Shown piece by piece: positions 6,470-39,961 of a stretch of 42,314 bases of DNA. The notes under the pieces were generated by a model, which saw only the letters and a program-made list of their open reading frames with translations, did not search any database and was not told the origin of the DNA. Both the position numbers and the translations under genes were made by a program. Origin of the DNA: a virus; IMG/VR virus record IMGVR_UViG_3300047678_000197, positions 1 to 42,314 of that record, one strand, 5' to 3'. How positions within the stretch are numbered: position 1 is the first letter of the stretch; each line of letters begins with the position of its first letter.

Positions 6470-7117
6470 ATGAATTACCAAGCCCACTACGACCGGCTCA
6501 TCGAAAGAGCCAAGATGCGCATCTATGGCAGAGACGTCTATACAGAGCGCCATCACATCATCCCTAAGTGCATGGGTGGAGATGACTCGAATGCAAACCT
6601 TGTTAAGCTTTTGCCTGAAGAGCATTTGTTTGCGCACAGACTGCTATGCAGAATGTACCCAGAGAACAACAAACTCGCACTTGCCGTAATGAGATGCGCA
6701 GCAAATCACAAAGGACGTGAAGCTCGGCAGTTGTTCAAAATGGATCGCACGCGTGCAGCCTTGGCGCAACGCGGACGCACACTGTCTGACCAACATAAAG
6801 CGAACATTTCTGCCGGCTTGTTAAGCAGAACAGCTGAGGACCGTAAGAGAACTCGAAAGCTGCAATCAGCTTCAACAATTGGTCAGCCCAAATCCGAAGA
6901 GCATCGCCGCAAGATTGCGAAGTCTCTATTGGGAAAAACGCACAGTCAAGAACATCGTGAGAAAAACAGTGCGGCACAAAAACGGCAAATTCGAGTCCCC
7001 CATACGCAAGAGACCCGAGCGAAAATCGCTGCTGGGAACAAGGGAAGAAAGAATTCGCCAGAATCTATTGAAAGGATGAGAGCAGCCTATGCCCGCCGTA
7101 AAGCTCTTACCTCGTAA
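6470..7117 (+). CDS. HNH homing endonuclease with NUMOD3 repeats, copy 1
   Basis: The likely protein is 215 residues starting MNYQAHYDRL. A longer frame from 6386 exists, but the start at 6470 is shared with the second copy at 27396. The HNH core is ERHHIIPKCMGG...NLVKLLPEEHLFAHRLL (about residues 23-60), which cuts DNA using a metal ion. The C-terminal half has several NUMOD3-type DNA-binding repeats (LSDQHKANISAG, KSEEHRRKIAKS, HSQEHREKNSAA, HTQETRAKIAAG, SPESIERMRAA). The gene lies on the plus strand in an otherwise leftward tail block and overlaps the end of its neighbour by 11 bases, as expected of a mobile intergenic homing gene. Its own TAAATA element lies about 100 bases upstream. Confidence 0.88.
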   Translation: MNYQAHYDRLIERAKMRIYGRDVYTERHHIIPKCMGGDDSNANLVKLLPEEHLFAHRLLCRMYPENNKLALAVMRCAANHKGREARQLFKMDRTRAALAQRGRTLSDQHKANISAGLLSRTAEDRKRTRKLQSASTIGQPKSEEHRRKIAKSLLGKTHSQEHREKNSAAQKRQIRVPHTQETRAKIAAGNKGRKNSPESIERMRAAYARRKALTS

Positions 7118-26519: not shown

Positions 26520-26993
26520 ATGGCACAAAAACTCGTCGTCCCAATGGACACACATACCGTCTACATGATCTGCAACCCGCTCATCAACTCGGTCTACTAC
26601 GGCTTTACCAAGCTTGACATCAACATGCGGTTTCGTGACCACATGAATGCGCTGGTCAGTGGGTATCACTACAGCAAAGAGCTGCAAGCCGCATTCAACC
26701 GTAACCCTCTTGGGTGGACCGTCCACCAAATTGCGAAGCTTCCTGAATGGGAAGCTGACGCTCTTGAAACTGATCTGATTGAAGGCGACATGTTCTGCTT
26801 CAACGTTCAGAAGAATCCACGCAAGGTGAAAACCGTTCCTTGCCAGATCACTTTGGATCAACTGATTCAAGTTCAAGAGTTGCTTAATGCTGGCGACAAG
26901 TATCAATACCACATCGCTCGAATCACAGGCGTTACTCCTTCCATCGTGTCCCAAATCTCTCGCGGCGTGCATTCGCTTCAGGGGGCAGTATGA
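26520..26993 (+). CDS. Putative GIY-YIG homing endonuclease with degenerate motif
   Basis: The 157-residue protein has a GIY-YIG-like N-terminus: TVYMI at 13-17, SVYYGFT at 24-30 and the conserved Arg region MRFRDHMNAL at 36-45, then ALETDLIEGDMF which may provide the catalytic Glu. The first motif is VYM rather than GIY. The C-terminus from about 110 is a helix-turn-helix (LIQVQELLNAG, IARITGVTPSIVSQISRG) for DNA binding. This nuclease-plus-HTH layout fits free-standing homing endonucleases. It has an AGGAG site and overlaps the next gene start (ATGA). Activity is uncertain. Confidence 0.62.
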   Translation: MAQKLVVPMDTHTVYMICNPLINSVYYGFTKLDINMRFRDHMNALVSGYHYSKELQAAFNRNPLGWTVHQIAKLPEWEADALETDLIEGDMFCFNVQKNPRKVKTVPCQITLDQLIQVQELLNAGDKYQYHIARITGVTPSIVSQISRGVHSLQGAV

Positions 26994-27193: not shown

Positions 27194-27399
27194 CTTCATT
27201 TATGACTAAGGAGCAACTAGAGCGCTTCAACCTTGCTGAAAAGACCAACGACGAGCTTCGTGAGCAGCTAAAGACCGTTGTCGTTGAGCTTCGCAATGAG
27301 GTCTCCAACGTTGAGCAACGGCTTGCCGGAAAGGTGATTGCTGACTCGATTAAGGAGCTTCGGGCTCGCGGTGCTTATCCCAAGCCAGAAGACAAATGA
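27190..27399 (+). CDS. Small coiled-coil protein of unknown function
   Basis: The protein has 69 residues starting MTSFMTKEQL; the ATG at 27190 overlaps the upstream TGA and has GGGAG six bases before it. An in-frame ATG twelve bases earlier is less well placed. The body is a coiled coil (LREQLKTVVVELRNEVSNVEQRL). Its own stop overlaps the start of the second HNH gene. The role is unknown. Confidence 0.58.
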   Translation: MTSFMTKEQLERFNLAEKTNDELREQLKTVVVELRNEVSNVEQRLAGKVIADSIKELRARGAYPKPEDK

Positions 27400-28016
27400 A
27401 CTATCAGGCTCATTATGACAGGTTAGTTGATAGAGCCAAACAGCGCACATACGCTGAAGGCGTCTATACAGAACGTCATCATATTTTGCCTAAATGCATG
27501 GGAGGCGATGATTCGATAAGCAATTTAGTAAATCTATTGCCTGGAGAGCATCTTTTTGCGCATCGGTTGTTATGCCGCATCTACCCCAATCGTCCTGGAC
27601 TGGCATATGCGGTTAGCAAATTAGCAGGCGGTCGTATTGGGCGCGAGTCAAGGCGGTTGTATGAAATGGACAGGAAGCGCTATTCATGGGTTGCTAGAAA
27701 TCCTTCCGCTGAGACTCGCGCAAAACTCTCGAACGCAGCGAAAAATTGTTCACCGGAAAAGCGAGCCAAGCTGTCCGCTGCTGCACTGAAGCAAAAGGAG
27801 TTCTCTCCTGAGACTCGCGCAAAGCTTGTAGCTGCTCAAAGAAACAAAGCTCCGATGTCAAAAGAAGCTAGAGCCAAAATTTCAGAAGCTAGGCGCAATA
27901 GGCCGACGTCTCCAGAGACCCGCGCAAAGCTTTCTGCAATTTCCAAGAAGCAGCAGGCGGAATTGAGAGCGAGGCGCAATACTGACACCAGTTTGTCGGC
28001 AACAGTATCTCCCTAA
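27396..28016 (+). CDS. HNH homing endonuclease with NUMOD3 repeats, copy 2
   Basis: This 206-residue paralogue is related to the nuclease at 6470: both begin MNYQAHYDRL and share VYTERHH and EHLFAHRLLCR. The HNH core (ERHHILPKCMGGDD...NLVNLLPGEHLFAH) is intact. The C-terminal half has about five regular NUMOD3 units of the form SPETRAKLsxAxxxx, more uniform than in copy 1. The A+T-rich codon use differs from the flanking genes, suggesting recent arrival. The start overlaps the upstream stop, so it is expressed with the accessory operon, and a hairpin-rich segment follows it directly. Confidence 0.88.
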   Translation: MNYQAHYDRLVDRAKQRTYAEGVYTERHHILPKCMGGDDSISNLVNLLPGEHLFAHRLLCRIYPNRPGLAYAVSKLAGGRIGRESRRLYEMDRKRYSWVARNPSAETRAKLSNAAKNCSPEKRAKLSAAALKQKEFSPETRAKLVAAQRNKAPMSKEARAKISEARRNRPTSPETRAKLSAISKKQQAELRARRNTDTSLSATVSP

Positions 28017-30378: not shown

Positions 30379-30963
30379 ATGTTCACCGTCGGTCATCGTC
30401 CCTCACATACTGGCAAGGTCACGACAACGACTCCCCTCAAGGATATCGAGCACGTGGCCGCCATCAAGGAGCTGCTGAGAGACCGGCCTCGGGACTTGGC
30501 GCTCTTCGTCATGGGCTGCAACACGGCCTTCAGAGCCGGTGACCTGCTGTCCTTGGAGCGCTCAGACCTGAAGCTGCTGCCTGACGGGCGCTACGAAGTG
30601 ACCGTCATCGAAGGCAAGACCCGCAAGCTCAGGCAGGTGGTGCTCAACCTCCCAACCTCACAGGTGCTGCAACGCCACTTGGACAGCTCGTCAGGGTTCT
30701 ACGTGTTTTCTGGGCAGAGGGGAAAGCTCAGCGTTTCTTGGCTGACCCGGATGTTGAAGCAGTGGGCCGATGAGGTCGGCGTTGAAGGTCGGATTGCGAG
30801 CCACACGCTGAGGAAGACCTTCGTCAGGCTGCAGCACGACAAGTTCGGCACCTCGCTGACTACCCTGATGCATGTCCTGAACCATTCCTCAGAGCGTCAA
30901 ACACTCGCCTACATGGGCTTGCTCGCCGAGGATGTCAGCCAAGCCTACGCCCACGCGATTTGA
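30379..30963 (+). CDS. Short tyrosine recombinase (catalytic domain only)
   Basis: The 194-residue protein has the complete catalytic set of tyrosine recombinases: Arg52 (TAFRAGDLLSL), Lys80 (EGKTRKLRQV), His142-x-x-Arg145 (SHTLRKTF), His169 (LNHSS) and Tyr178 (TLAYMGL). It lacks the N-terminal arm- and core-binding domains of phage integrases. Since integration is explained by the serine integrase, this enzyme may resolve dimers, invert DNA or mobilise a cargo segment. No Shine-Dalgarno sequence is evident before the ATG. Its last 29 bases overlap a convergent gene. Confidence 0.88.
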   Translation: MFTVGHRPSHTGKVTTTTPLKDIEHVAAIKELLRDRPRDLALFVMGCNTAFRAGDLLSLERSDLKLLPDGRYEVTVIEGKTRKLRQVVLNLPTSQVLQRHLDSSSGFYVFSGQRGKLSVSWLTRMLKQWADEVGVEGRIASHTLRKTFVRLQHDKFGTSLTTLMHVLNHSSERQTLAYMGLLAEDVSQAYAHAI

Positions 30964-32893: not shown

Positions 32894-33271
32894 GGTTGCC
32901 TCCTAGGAAGATCGTAGTCATGCAAGCCTGTCCGGCAAGGACCGGAAGGTGTGCACACCGACGGGCTAAGCGGCCCTAACACGCAGGTGCTTGCAAAAGT
33001 CAGCACGTGCTTGTAGACTGGCCATGCTGCTCAGTCAGCCTCAACCCGCAAAACCGCAAAATCATTAATCCGCTAATCCGCTAATCCGCTAATCCGCTAA
33101 TCCATTAATCTGCGAATCCATTATTCGAATCCGTTAATCCATCAAATTCGTTAATCCATCAAATCCGCTAACCCACTAATCCATTAAACTGAAAATCTAA
33201 TTAGCTTAATCAAAATGCTGGCGCTTCCAATCTTAATGGTTGCTCCGTCGGGTCCGATTAGGCTTTAAATT
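32894..33271. other. Intergenic region holding an 8-bp repeat array
   Basis: These 378 bases between the divergent 80-residue gene and the PadR-like gene contain no gene. The left part has small inverted repeats (CCGGcaaggaCCGG-like at about 32933). The right part is the octanucleotide array, then A+T-rich DNA leading to the GTG start at 33272. Confidence 0.6.
33046..33190. repeat. Degenerate tandem array of the octamer TAATCCGC
   Basis: Four exact copies of TAATCCGC (33066-33097) are followed by about ten diverged units such as TAATCCAT, TAATCTGC, GAATCCAT and AAATCCGC up to about 33190, and preceded by two weaker units. The period is eight bases with occasional nine-base steps. It lies 80-220 bases before a PadR-like regulator gene. 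It could act as multiple binding sites, as iterons, or as a slippage-prone spacer that changes expression. Confidence 0.88.
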
Positions 33272-33595
33272 GTGAAGCTACAAGAGTCAAAGACACATTC
33301 GTCCGCCGTAGCACCTAGGGAACTTAAGGCACTTCGCCTCTTGATCGACCACCCAAATGGTCTTTATGGTTCAGAGTTTGTCTCCAAGTCTGACGGGTTT
33401 ATCAGCCGTGGAACAATCTACACAACCTTAGAGCGATTGGTCGAGAAAGGGTACGTGCGTGAAGTCGAACAGGAACCTACGAGCGAATACCAACTTCGTC
33501 GGACTAAGCATTTTATTACTGGCCTAGGTCAGCGCGCAGTGCAAGAGTACTGCCAGCTAATGGGCTTTCAGATGCTTGGACCGGCACACGCTTGA
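33272..33595 (+). CDS. PadR-like winged-helix regulator
   Basis: The 107-residue protein starts with GTG. The winged helix covers residues about 15-80: RELKALRLLIDHPNGLYGSEFVSKSDG, then FISRGTIYTTLERLVEKGYVREVEQE as recognition helix and wing, as in PadR-family repressors. The short C-terminal helix (LGQRAVQEYCQLMGF) would make the dimer. It is followed after nine bases by a membrane protein gene, so the pair is probably one operon controlled by this protein through the upstream octamer array (inference). Confidence 0.75.
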   Translation: MKLQESKTHSSAVAPRELKALRLLIDHPNGLYGSEFVSKSDGFISRGTIYTTLERLVEKGYVREVEQEPTSEYQLRRTKHFITGLGQRAVQEYCQLMGFQMLGPAHA

Positions 33596-34802: not shown

Positions 34803-35380
34803 GGGCGCCTCCCTGCAGATGTTGTTCACCGAGGGCGTGGGGCAGTGGCATCACGGGATTCATGCGTAATAGCTTAGGGCCTCCATCAGCAGATGGATGT
34901 GCACAAGCCTGTGGGTAGCCGGTGCACAGCCGGTGCCTTGCGCGGGATGACTTCATAGGACAGCCAGGAACGCCGTTCTCGCCCTGTGCACAAGGTGTGA
35001 GGTGGTCCGCTTCACCCGGGCTGGTTGGGCGGCTCTTTGCGTGTTTCATGGCTGACAGCTTAGGACACGCCAGGAAGCCAGCAACCCGCGAACGCGGAAG
35101 ATCGCGCATCGCAATGCATTGCAGTTGATGTGGGCGGATCGCGAGCCGTACATGCCGAAGTGACGGTCAATCGGGTGCCTCCTAGTGAATGTCTCTGCTC
35201 CTAGGCGCTCGCACCGAGGATGTGCCGTAGTTGATGTAGTGCATTGCGATGCACGATCTAGTGAGCTGGCCCAGCAAGCCATAGGCATCCATCTGCATGT
35301 CGGTGAAGAACTGATCTGCCGTGTGCTCGTGCAAGAAGTTCTCGCGAAGTGCCCAACGCGACCTCTACTTTTCAGCCGAC

Positions 35381-35408
35381 AGATAGGGCTTGGACTGGCC
35401 CTGGATCG
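35381..35408. repeat. 28-base direct repeat, left copy
   Basis: The 28 bases starting AGATAGGGCTTGGACTGG are repeated exactly at 35528-35555, 147 bases further on. The unit contains GGGC/GCCC ends in imperfect symmetry. Exact conservation in otherwise unconstrained DNA suggests a protein-binding site, for example for terminase. Confidence 0.85.
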
Positions 35409-35527
35409 CCGCTCTGGCTGACCGAAGCCTCAAATCAGCCTTCCCAGCGTGAGCTCACACGCGATCACGGGCTTGGAAAAGGCTTTTTGACGGTTCCGAG
35501 TGACTTCCGACCAGTTTGTTGCCAGCC

Positions 35528-35555
35528 AGATAGGGCTTGGACTGGCCCTGGATCG
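35528..35555. repeat. 28-base direct repeat, right copy
   Basis: This is the second exact copy of the unit at 35381-35408, lying about 650 bases upstream of the small terminase gene. Confidence 0.85.
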
Positions 35556-35737
35556 TCAGCCCCAGTTCACCATCTGAAACTCGGTCGTCGTTATACAAAA
35601 TACGACAAGGTCGGTGACCGTCACGTGCAGGATGAGCCCTTATCTGGCGTATGACAAGCTTTTAAAGAGCGTTCGAGCCCTGTGAGGATAAGGGTTATGT
35701 CGCCGTAAGAAAAGCTTATGAGACGCTCAACACGGGG

Positions 35738-35764
35738 CTTGGTCAACCTTGGTGCGTGACCAAG
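35738..35764. promoter_or_regulatory. Inverted repeat CTTGGTCA/TGACCAAG
   Basis: Perfect eight-base arms are separated by 11 bases, which contain a further TTGGT. The centre-to-centre spacing of the arms is close to two helical turns, as in operators for dimeric repressors. Confidence 0.5.
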
Positions 35765-35784
35765 TAATAGCTCAGCATATTGAA

Positions 35785-35810
35785 GGCATAATAGTAATAG
35801 CCATTATGCC
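35785..35810. promoter_or_regulatory. Inverted repeat GGCATAAT/ATTATGCC
   Basis: Perfect eight-base arms are separated by ten bases. The left arm recurs as a single GGCATAAT at 35873-35880 and a related GGCATTAT at 35916-35923, suggesting an array of sites for one regulator. Confidence 0.5.
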
Positions 35811-35888
35811 TGTCCAAGAGCCGGGCTAGGCGAGTGACTGGCGACTGTTAGAAAATAGTGGCATATTGACAGGGCATAATCTAGATCG

Positions 35889-35906
35889 TTATCTGAAGTC
35901 AGATAA
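35889..35906. promoter_or_regulatory. Inverted repeat TTATCTGA/TCAGATAA
   Basis: Perfect eight-base arms are separated by two bases, and ATTATCTGAAG recurs at 35919-35929. It overlaps the region where a promoter starting from TTGACA at 35866-35871 would have its -10 box, so binding could repress that promoter. Confidence 0.5.
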
Positions 35907-36179
35907 TGTTTGATCGGCATTATCTGAAGCTGAGCTGGCTAAGAGTAGACCAATTTCACGGGGCGACTGTCTTTTTCACCATGTGATAAAAAACGCTGGA
36001 AAGTTTTTGACAAGCAACAGTGACGGTTTCACCGGTTGTTTGAGGTCTTCACCCAAGCCGTTCAATCCGGTTTCATGTGAGCGCTGATCCGGTTGTTTGG
36101 TGACGGTGCAATCGGTGTCAAGACATCCGTCCGCAGGCCGTTGTTGAACCGCCTATGCCTGAGTTAGTGGCTCCCCGAG

Positions 36180-36185
36180 TAAATA
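36180..36185 (+). promoter_or_regulatory. TAAATA element before the terminase operon
   Basis: Plus-strand TAAATA ends 22 bases before the terS ATG at 36208, at the right edge of the repeat-rich control region. Confidence 0.58.
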
Positions 36186-36207
36186 TGCTCTTTGGAGTAC
36201 TACTCAT

Positions 36208-38505: not shown

Positions 38506-39174
38506 TTATAAATTCTGCATCTCAGGATCAAATGTTTGTTGCTCACGCATCTTAGTAAAGCGCTCTGCGTTGTAGTTGTTCAGCTCTTCGCGCTTTGGCT
38601 TCTGTGCAGCAAGGATCGCTTGCCGTTCTTCGCGTGTGACCAGCTTCTTCTTAGTTCCTGGCTTCTTGACCAAGCGCTTGAATCCCAGGTTATCGAAGAC
38701 CTCGGCATACTCGACAGTTGAAGCAACAATCTCTGGCAGGTCGGCCAGAACTTGGAGGTATTCTGAAGCGGTGACTGCGTTCCGCTTGCCTAGGATGGCT
38801 ACGGTGCGCATCGCAAGCTGGTCAACTGCGGCTTTGGACGGCGCCCATGAAGTTTTGATCTTCGTGCGCGTGATCGGGTCATGGCAGCCGATCTGTACTT
38901 GGGCGAAAAGCTTGCGCCAAATGCGTGTGGCCGGCTTGCCATAAGCCTTTGTCAGCGCGAGTGGGCTCATGCAGATGCGAACCTGCTTGAAGTCGTGGTT
39001 GTAGCTGAACTCTGTGATTAAGGATTGGTCTGTGAACTGAGCGCCTGCTTCTACGGCAAGGGTCGGGTCAAGCTCGACACGAGAGATTGCTTGTAAGAGG
39101 GGTGAGAGAAACTCTGTGATGAACAGAGCTGAGCGCTCAGTGTTGAGGCGCCATGGACGAACTTGGGTTTGCAT
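38506..39174 (-). CDS. Unknown early protein with a long structured leader
   Basis: The 222-residue protein starts MQTQVRPWRLNTERSALF behind AAGG. The N-terminal half looks like an alpha/beta domain (LITEFSYNHDFKQVRICMSPLALTKAYG), the middle is helical (AVDQLAMRTVAILGKR, SEYLQVLADLPEIVAS) and the C-terminal 60 residues are basic and coiled (KKPGTKKKLVTREERQAILAAQ). It may bind nucleic acid. Its 5' leader of about 165 bases can form a pseudoknot-like fold, which suggests translational control. No family is recognised. Confidence 0.65.
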   Translation of the reverse strand: MQTQVRPWRLNTERSALFITEFLSPLLQAISRVELDPTLAVEAGAQFTDQSLITEFSYNHDFKQVRICMSPLALTKAYGKPATRIWRKLFAQVQIGCHDPITRTKIKTSWAPSKAAVDQLAMRTVAILGKRNAVTASEYLQVLADLPEIVASTVEYAEVFDNLGFKRLVKKPGTKKKLVTREERQAILAAQKPKREELNNYNAERFTKMREQQTFDPEMQNL

Positions 39175-39225
39175 AATAAGCCTTCTTAATAGAATTTCGA
39201 TTGCTGGTTGATCCTTACGCTGCTT

Positions 39226-39335
39226 CCTAGGTCAGCGGTTAATGCACTTTGAGGACGATCAGCCTTCAACAAAAGACTTAGGACCTAGGAGAGATCAAAA
39301 CCGGCAATCAGCTGATCGTCTTCAAAGTACATTAA
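39226..39335 (-). promoter_or_regulatory. Interleaved inverted repeats in an mRNA leader, possible pseudoknot
   Basis: Two pairs of complementary segments interlock: 39239-39262 with 39312-39335 (24 bases, 22 matches plus one G-T) and 39226-39233 with 39282-39289 (CCTAGGTC/GACCTAGG, eight matches). In the leftward transcript the order is B', A', B, A, so both stems can only form together as a pseudoknot. The element begins six bases after the TAAATA at 39342-39347 and ends about 50 bases before the ATG at 39174. It may be an autoregulatory RNA or overlapping operator sites. Confidence 0.7.
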
Positions 39336-39341
39336 CGGAAG

Positions 39342-39349
39342 TATTTATA
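39342..39349 (-). promoter_or_regulatory. TATAAATA element before the pseudoknot leader
   Basis: The minus strand reads TATAAATACTTC, again the full octamer. The interleaved inverted repeats begin six bases downstream, so a transcript from here would carry the whole folded leader of the 222-residue gene. Confidence 0.58.
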
Positions 39350-39361
39350 AAAGTTGCGACT

Positions 39362-39381
39362 GTCTAGCGGAAAACGAAGAT
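39362..39381. repeat. 20-base inverted repeat, left arm
   Basis: GTCTAGCGGAAAACGAAGAT is present here and as an exact reverse complement at 39756-39775, inside the frame at 39465-39857. The arms enclose 374 bases. Confidence 0.88.
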
Positions 39382-39398
39382 TAGTCTTCTGAATAAAT

Positions 39399-39446
39399 CC
39401 TAGCGGTTTTTATAGAGAAGATAGAACCTATATGGAAACCGCTAGG
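39399..39446. repeat. 11-base inverted repeat CCTAGCGGTTT/AAACCGCTAGG
   Basis: Perfect 11-base arms at 39399-39409 and 39436-39446 enclose 26 A+T-rich bases. Related words TAGCGGAAAA (39365) and AAAACCGCTA (39457) flank it, making four copies of a TAGCGG-plus-A/T-run element within 100 bases. They may be iteron-like sites of an origin, or a terminator of the leftward gene at 39465. Confidence 0.6.
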
Positions 39447-39464
39447 ACCTACTACTAAAAACCG

Positions 39465-39857
39465 CTATCGCCAACTTCCAGCCAGGCGAGTCGAAATGCG
39501 GCTGTACCCAGGCGCATCGAACGAGCATGGCTTGAGAGCGCCGTCAGGCGCGAGCAGTGATTGAGATATGACAGCCGACTTGGCAAGCAAGATCGGCTTC
39601 ACGGCGCATGCCATCACACGGGTCAGCCTTGCGGCTTCGATGACAAGCATCGCCGTGTGGCCGTCAGCGCCGGTTGGTTGAGAGGTTGTGGTTGCGGGTG
39701 CGCCTTGCGGCGCAAATGAGCGCTCAGCACGCAGGACAAACCGTTCAGCAGATTCATCTTCGTTTTCCGCTAGACGGCCAATCTTCCAGACCGTCACCAA
39801 TGCCCTAAATCTGCCCCAGGAGCTGCGATTTTCGATGGCCGGCACCTGCACCGGCAC
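39465..39857 (-). CDS. Possible 130-residue protein
   Basis: A GTG-started frame encodes MPVQVPAIENRSSWGRFRALVTVWKI-type sequence, then ESAERFVLRAERSFAPQG and a C-terminal part with many Ala and Leu (HTAMLVIEAARLTRVMA). Composition looks plausible for a protein, but the ribosome-binding site is weak and the family is not recognised. It contains the right arm of the 20-base inverted repeat. Confidence 0.45.
   Translation of the reverse strand: MPVQVPAIENRSSWGRFRALVTVWKIGRLAENEDESAERFVLRAERSFAPQGAPATTTSQPTGADGHTAMLVIEAARLTRVMACAVKPILLAKSAVISQSLLAPDGALKPCSFDAPGYSRISTRLAGSWR
39756..39775. repeat. 20-base inverted repeat, right arm
   Basis: This is the exact reverse complement of 39362-39381. 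On the minus strand it reads as codons for RLAENED in the 130-residue frame. Confidence 0.88.
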
Positions 39858-39930: not shown

Positions 39931-39961
39931 AAAACAGCCACCAAAACGGCAGCTGTTTTTC
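39931..39961 (-). terminator. Hairpin after the DUF669 gene, probable terminator
   Basis: AAAACAGC (39931-39938) pairs with GCTGTTTT (39952-39959), eight perfect pairs around a 13-base loop. It begins 16 bases past the DUF669 stop in the leftward direction. The T-run is part of the stem on the minus strand, while the plus strand has five T followed by C, so it may work in both directions. Confidence 0.55.

Follow-up and report, generated by a model that had tools for sequence, protein, structure and literature searches.

A 138-nt element (39199–39336, minus strand), whose complementarity would give two interleaved helices, one of about 26 pairs and one of about 29, was located upstream of a 222-residue gene in the virus record IMGVR_UViG_3300047678_000197, all 42,314 bases of which were taken as the window. 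The most likely reading, to which we assign a probability of roughly 0.45, is that this element folds, in the gene's own transcript, into a 5′-terminal RNA structure acting in cis. It is based on the excess complementarity, leader position, and free ribosome site observed here; the start site, folding in the cell, and effect on expression are inferred. The strands follow one another in the order A, C–B, A′, B′–C′, so named that A pairs with A′ in helix H1 and the B and C segments pair with B′ and C′ in helix H2. The coding score identified the element as non-coding, and the strong score of the gene that follows agrees with the original prediction that the pairs lie within an untranslated leader.

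H1 is composed of a 5′ arm (A, 39311–39336, minus) and a 3′ arm (A′, 39238–39263, minus), which were found by inverted-repeat search and are separated by a 47-nt loop. The 26-nt arms match exactly at 24 positions, giving 24 Watson–Crick pairs, while the two differences become one G-U wobble and one A·C mismatch (39321/39253) whichever strand is read; H1 hence has no strand preference. This stem alone was evaluated at −35.8 kcal/mol. It is the top inverted repeat of the window with a score of 20, compared with a maximum of 15 and a mean of 12.0 for the best repeats of 100 dinucleotide-shuffled windows. The long pair had been described as 24 bases with one clear mismatch and as very unlikely to arise by chance, and both statements hold for H1 once the wobble is added. 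The ATG present in each arm opens a short frame starting with M(Y/H)FEDDQ, one of 15 codons on the minus strand (39285–39332) and the other of 41 codons on the plus strand (39242–39367). These frames are probably due to chance, the alternative being a leader peptide.

The shorter pair, B, was also found where it had been placed (39225–39233 with 39282–39290), though with 9 bp instead of the 8 originally given, and its rarity did not stand when it was considered alone. A complementarity between loop and flank of at least 9 bases occurred in 18 of 1000 shuffles (1.8%), and one of at least 8 bases in 83 of 1000 (8.3%), so that pair B alone is weak. A longer, imperfect helix that the original prediction had missed nevertheless has this pair as its core. 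This helix, H2, joins a 5′ part within the H1 loop (39275/39276–39310, minus), which holds B (39290–39282) and C (39309–39300), to a 3′ part (39198–39236, minus) that lies after H1 and before the ribosome site and holds B′ (39233–39225) and C′ (39208–39199). Over half of the H1 loop is thus complementary to the segment between H1 and the ribosome site. The pairing beyond B comprises GATTGCCGG (39309–39301) with CCAGCAATC, located directly 5′ of the ribosome site, together with TTGATC/GATCAA. H2, which contains bulges, has 29 pairs when read on the minus strand and 30, of which 4 are GU, when read on the plus strand, and the register near B differs from strand to strand.

The net gain of H2 pairing over local folding was −21.9 kcal/mol on the minus strand and −27.1 kcal/mol on the plus strand. 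Given H1, such gains were equalled by 9 of 4000 shuffles of the same pieces for the minus strand and by 0 of 4000 for the plus strand, which bears out the claim that the interleaved complementarity exceeds chance. Native segments placed in the same geometry reached the minus-strand gain in 7 of 4000 cases, and the next-best interleaved partner of any other inverted repeat in the window gave only −16.1. With free choice among the inverted repeats of each shuffled window, −22.1 was reached in 9 of 104 windows and −27.1 in 1 of 104. H2 is therefore significant conditional on H1, and only moderately so over the whole window. A control using raw duplex energy, in which 16% of native segments were as low, was set aside because this energy depends on G+C content, and was replaced by the net gain over local folding.

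Folding of the leader gave −54.4 kcal/mol, whereas its shuffled versions gave −39.2 ± 4.0 (z −3.8). DNA folding parameters yielded the same excess (z −4.0), so that RNA is not singled out as the folding molecule; nor is the minus strand singled out, because H2 has the better score when the plus strand is read. This plus-strand advantage fits poorly with a role in the leader only, and is the main point for which such a role does not account. An intrinsic terminator or attenuator was rejected, as no U run follows H1 or H2 on either strand. Simultaneous formation of the full H1 and H2 is topologically demanding, since each exceeds two turns, which obliges the 3′ strand to thread its way through the loop. 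The two helices could lie next to each other, connected by a short joint at either end (0–1 and 1–4 nt) and by a long one of up to 18 nt that spans H1. That this 138-nt phage RNA is a compact regulatory RNA of undescribed shape, built of two such interlocked helices, is nevertheless improbable. A partial contact is easier than the full H2, either through the 9-bp core or as a loop–loop interaction with a small local hairpin, CGCTG-10-CAGCG (39218–39237, minus), found by folding. The loop of this hairpin carries the B′ sequence, so that it is an alternative to H2 that would give the loop–loop contact. H1 and H2 may also be alternatives to each other.

The 222-residue gene (38506–39174, minus) has a coding score of 50.5, reflecting its codon usage. 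Its protein matched no family above the cut-off, no resemblance to a single-stranded DNA-binding protein (SSB) or RNA binder was found, and an AlphaFold model made without an alignment was unusable (pLDDT 46). No relatives were detected in phages, plasmids, viral contigs, or species genomes, where the contig scans required a shared 8-residue peptide that relatives of about 60% identity could escape. Between the element and the gene lies an A+U-rich tail (39175–39198, minus; 18 of 24 bases), recognized from its sequence and folding, which carries a Shine-Dalgarno-like AAGAAGG (about 39190–39180) 6 nt 5′ of the ATG. This ribosome site pairs with neither H1 nor H2, and simple sequestration is therefore not seen.

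The -10-like sequence TATAAATA (39349–39342, minus) lies 5 nt upstream of H1, in agreement with the earlier description of the element as starting just after it. It is recognizable by eye, is absent from the matches of the consensus scan, and is accompanied by a poor -35. A transcript starting from it would begin near 39336–39337, at the first base of H1. Further upstream, a terminator-like repeat, AAAACAGC-13-GCTGTTTT (39931–39959), is flanked by T runs on both sides and has a loop longer than the terminator scan allows. It is likely a two-way intrinsic terminator at the boundary between the 222-residue gene and its upstream neighbour, an SSB-like gene of the DUF669 family. Its position behind the SSB-like gene makes a separate promoter for the 222-residue gene probable. 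Five CTAGCGG-type sites cluster in both orientations within 39362–39775, four of them in a control region at 39362–39470 and the fifth at 39767, and a 32-nt inverted repeat of 91% identity (39362–39393/39744–39775) is also located there. One of the sites overlaps the -35 position of the TATAAATA promoter, which may place this promoter under protein control. Tandem 8-bp repeats AATCCGCT/AATCCATT with a core similar to the CTAGCGG sites were also observed at 33043–33197, preceding a PadR-like ORF (33272–33595) recognized by eye.

The surrounding genome is that of a tailed phage, encoding terminase, portal, capsid, and tape-measure proteins. Its structural genes show less than 60% identity to those of known phages, and the phages related to it by terminase, capsid, portal, or SSB all fall below the same value, so that their leaders are not comparable. 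DNA comparison detected no relatives of the leader in the collections searched, nor did DNA patterns yield a homolog there, whether built on the arm, on the loop, on the CTAGCGG repeat, or on the inner stem at its given spacing. Sixteen contigs containing the inner 10-bp stem were rejected, as they shared nothing else and appeared coding-like; matches to the arm pattern were rejected because they lay on one strand only, and the short matches that BLAST gave in phages and plasmids were attributed to chance. A tRNA was the sole Rfam match at gathering score when the region and the window were scanned, and no covariance model matched inside the element even at an E-value of 5. These collections thus offered no relative of the gene or the leader from which covariation could be read.

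Several other features of the window were observed. A stretch of about 1.3 kb (34830–36200), in which no coding signal is convincing, lies 5′ of the genes that precede the terminase; it holds a second long inverted repeat (35099–35118/35240–35259), whose score no shuffle reached, as well as a 29-nt sequence repeated exactly and in direct orientation at 35380 and 35527, and is possibly an origin or packaging site. Two HNH/NUMOD3 homing-endonuclease genes (6470–6660 and 27396–27586) are 71% alike in DNA, and a GIY-YIG gene occurs at 26520. The phage also encodes both a large serine recombinase (186–1931) and a separate tyrosine-integrase-like gene (30379–30963).

A role in the leader is thus favored by the rank of H1 among inverted repeats, the folding excess, the significance of H2 given H1, the absence of coding signal, and the location 5 nt after TATAAATA, together with the terminator-like repeat and the repeated CTAGCGG sites upstream. 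The lack of relatives, the stronger plus-strand H2, the topology, the poor -35, and the excess under DNA parameters were counted against it. The last of these was counted in favor of a function at the DNA level, in which the element would be part of a replication origin, a protein-bound operator array, or a recombination site and the hairpin a cruciform or single-strand structure. We regard this as unlikely, though the neighbouring region is A+T-richer and contains the five CTAGCGG-type sites and the 32-nt inverted repeat, B′ abuts an AGCGGTT copy of the CTAGCGG motif, the SSB-like gene adjoins the element, and a turn of the cumulative GC skew falls at 39719. This turn is weak and close to the contig end, a mere fragment of the motif lies inside the element itself, and 26-bp arms around a 47-nt spacer are unlike operator and resolvase sites as generally known. 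Slightly less credence is given to a small antisense RNA, transcribed on the plus strand from near 39202 and containing both helices, that would regulate the 222-residue mRNA in trans or in cis, on the model of the antisense RNAs known from phages and from plasmid copy control. The higher gain of H2 on that strand, with its 4 GU pairs, argues for such an RNA, as does a weak sigma-70-like site, TTTGCA-16-TAGAAT (39168–39195, plus), which ends right before the outer end of H2. This site was one of 3 found by the promoter scan against 1.0 expected by chance, and its 9/12 match is within chance; moreover, the RNA would leave the ribosome site uncovered, no terminator directly follows 39336, and H1 favors neither strand.

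The original prediction had further proposed that the leader senses its own protein product or another ligand, which would make it a pseudoknot repressing translation in the manner of T4 gene 32. The general layout is the same, with a possible pseudoknot followed by a short A+U-rich segment containing the ribosome site, but the helices are far longer than those of T4 and the 222-residue protein is unlike any SSB or RNA binder, which makes this proposal very unlikely. Least credible is an element that has no present function and arose as an inverted duplication, neutral or recent, or was left behind by a small mobile element. A recent copy fits the arms, as they differ by only two bases and both open with an ATG reading M(Y/H)FEDDQ; a single event nonetheless leaves the interleaving of H2 unexplained, no copy was present in the other viral or bacterial contigs searched, and there is no clear target-site duplication.

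In the preferred reading, a cis-acting leader structure, RNA synthesis would start at about 39336 and H1 would form once 39238 is transcribed, after which its loop would pair with the segment directly 5′ of the ribosome site to give H2. H1 would most likely set the stability and processing of the mRNA, its 5′-terminal stem shielding the transcript from 5′-end-dependent decay, and a near-perfect duplex of more than 22 bp would suit RNase III as a substrate. Pairing in H2, in full or as its 9-bp core only, would fix the region beside the ribosome site in one of two states. According to PMC5371410 and references therein, mRNA is stabilised by 5′-terminal stems, and RNase III needs a duplex of about 22 nt and cuts phage RNAs, such as the lambda N and cIII leaders.

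Known phage systems resemble the present leader to different extents. The T4 and RB69 gene 32 operator likewise has a pseudoknot, here only a candidate, located 5′ of an unstructured A+U-rich segment with the ribosome site. The T4 gene 32 pseudoknot is about 28 nt, in contrast to the 138-nt element, and has as its ligand the SSB that gene 32 itself encodes (PMC535899, PMC3014915). Interleaved helices 5′ of the ribosome site are present here as complementarity only, and the downstream SSB that helps to define a gene 32-type operator is lacking, as the 222-residue protein has no SSB match and the SSB-like DUF669 gene is located upstream; the likeness to gene 32 is one of layout only. Phage P1 has an antisense RNA, c4 (PMC8546580). 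The two cases may be alike in that a structured RNA with sequences complementary to the leader would regulate a phage gene. Here, however, the loop and its target are adjacent within one transcript, and the region has no Rfam family match. The leaders stabilised by 5′ stem-loops or processed by RNase III (lambda N, cIII, and T7 early RNA) possess a long near-perfect stem at or near the start of an early phage mRNA, 5′ of a free ribosome site, and H1 would occupy the corresponding place if transcription starts from TATAAATA as predicted; the H1 duplex reaches the minimum of at least about 22 bp for this class. We know of no such leader in which a similarly long second helix is interleaved. If the hairpin alone forms, the element would be an ordinary stability or processing element of this class, whereas the formation of both helices would place an early phage gene under the control of a leader pseudoknot of unusual size.
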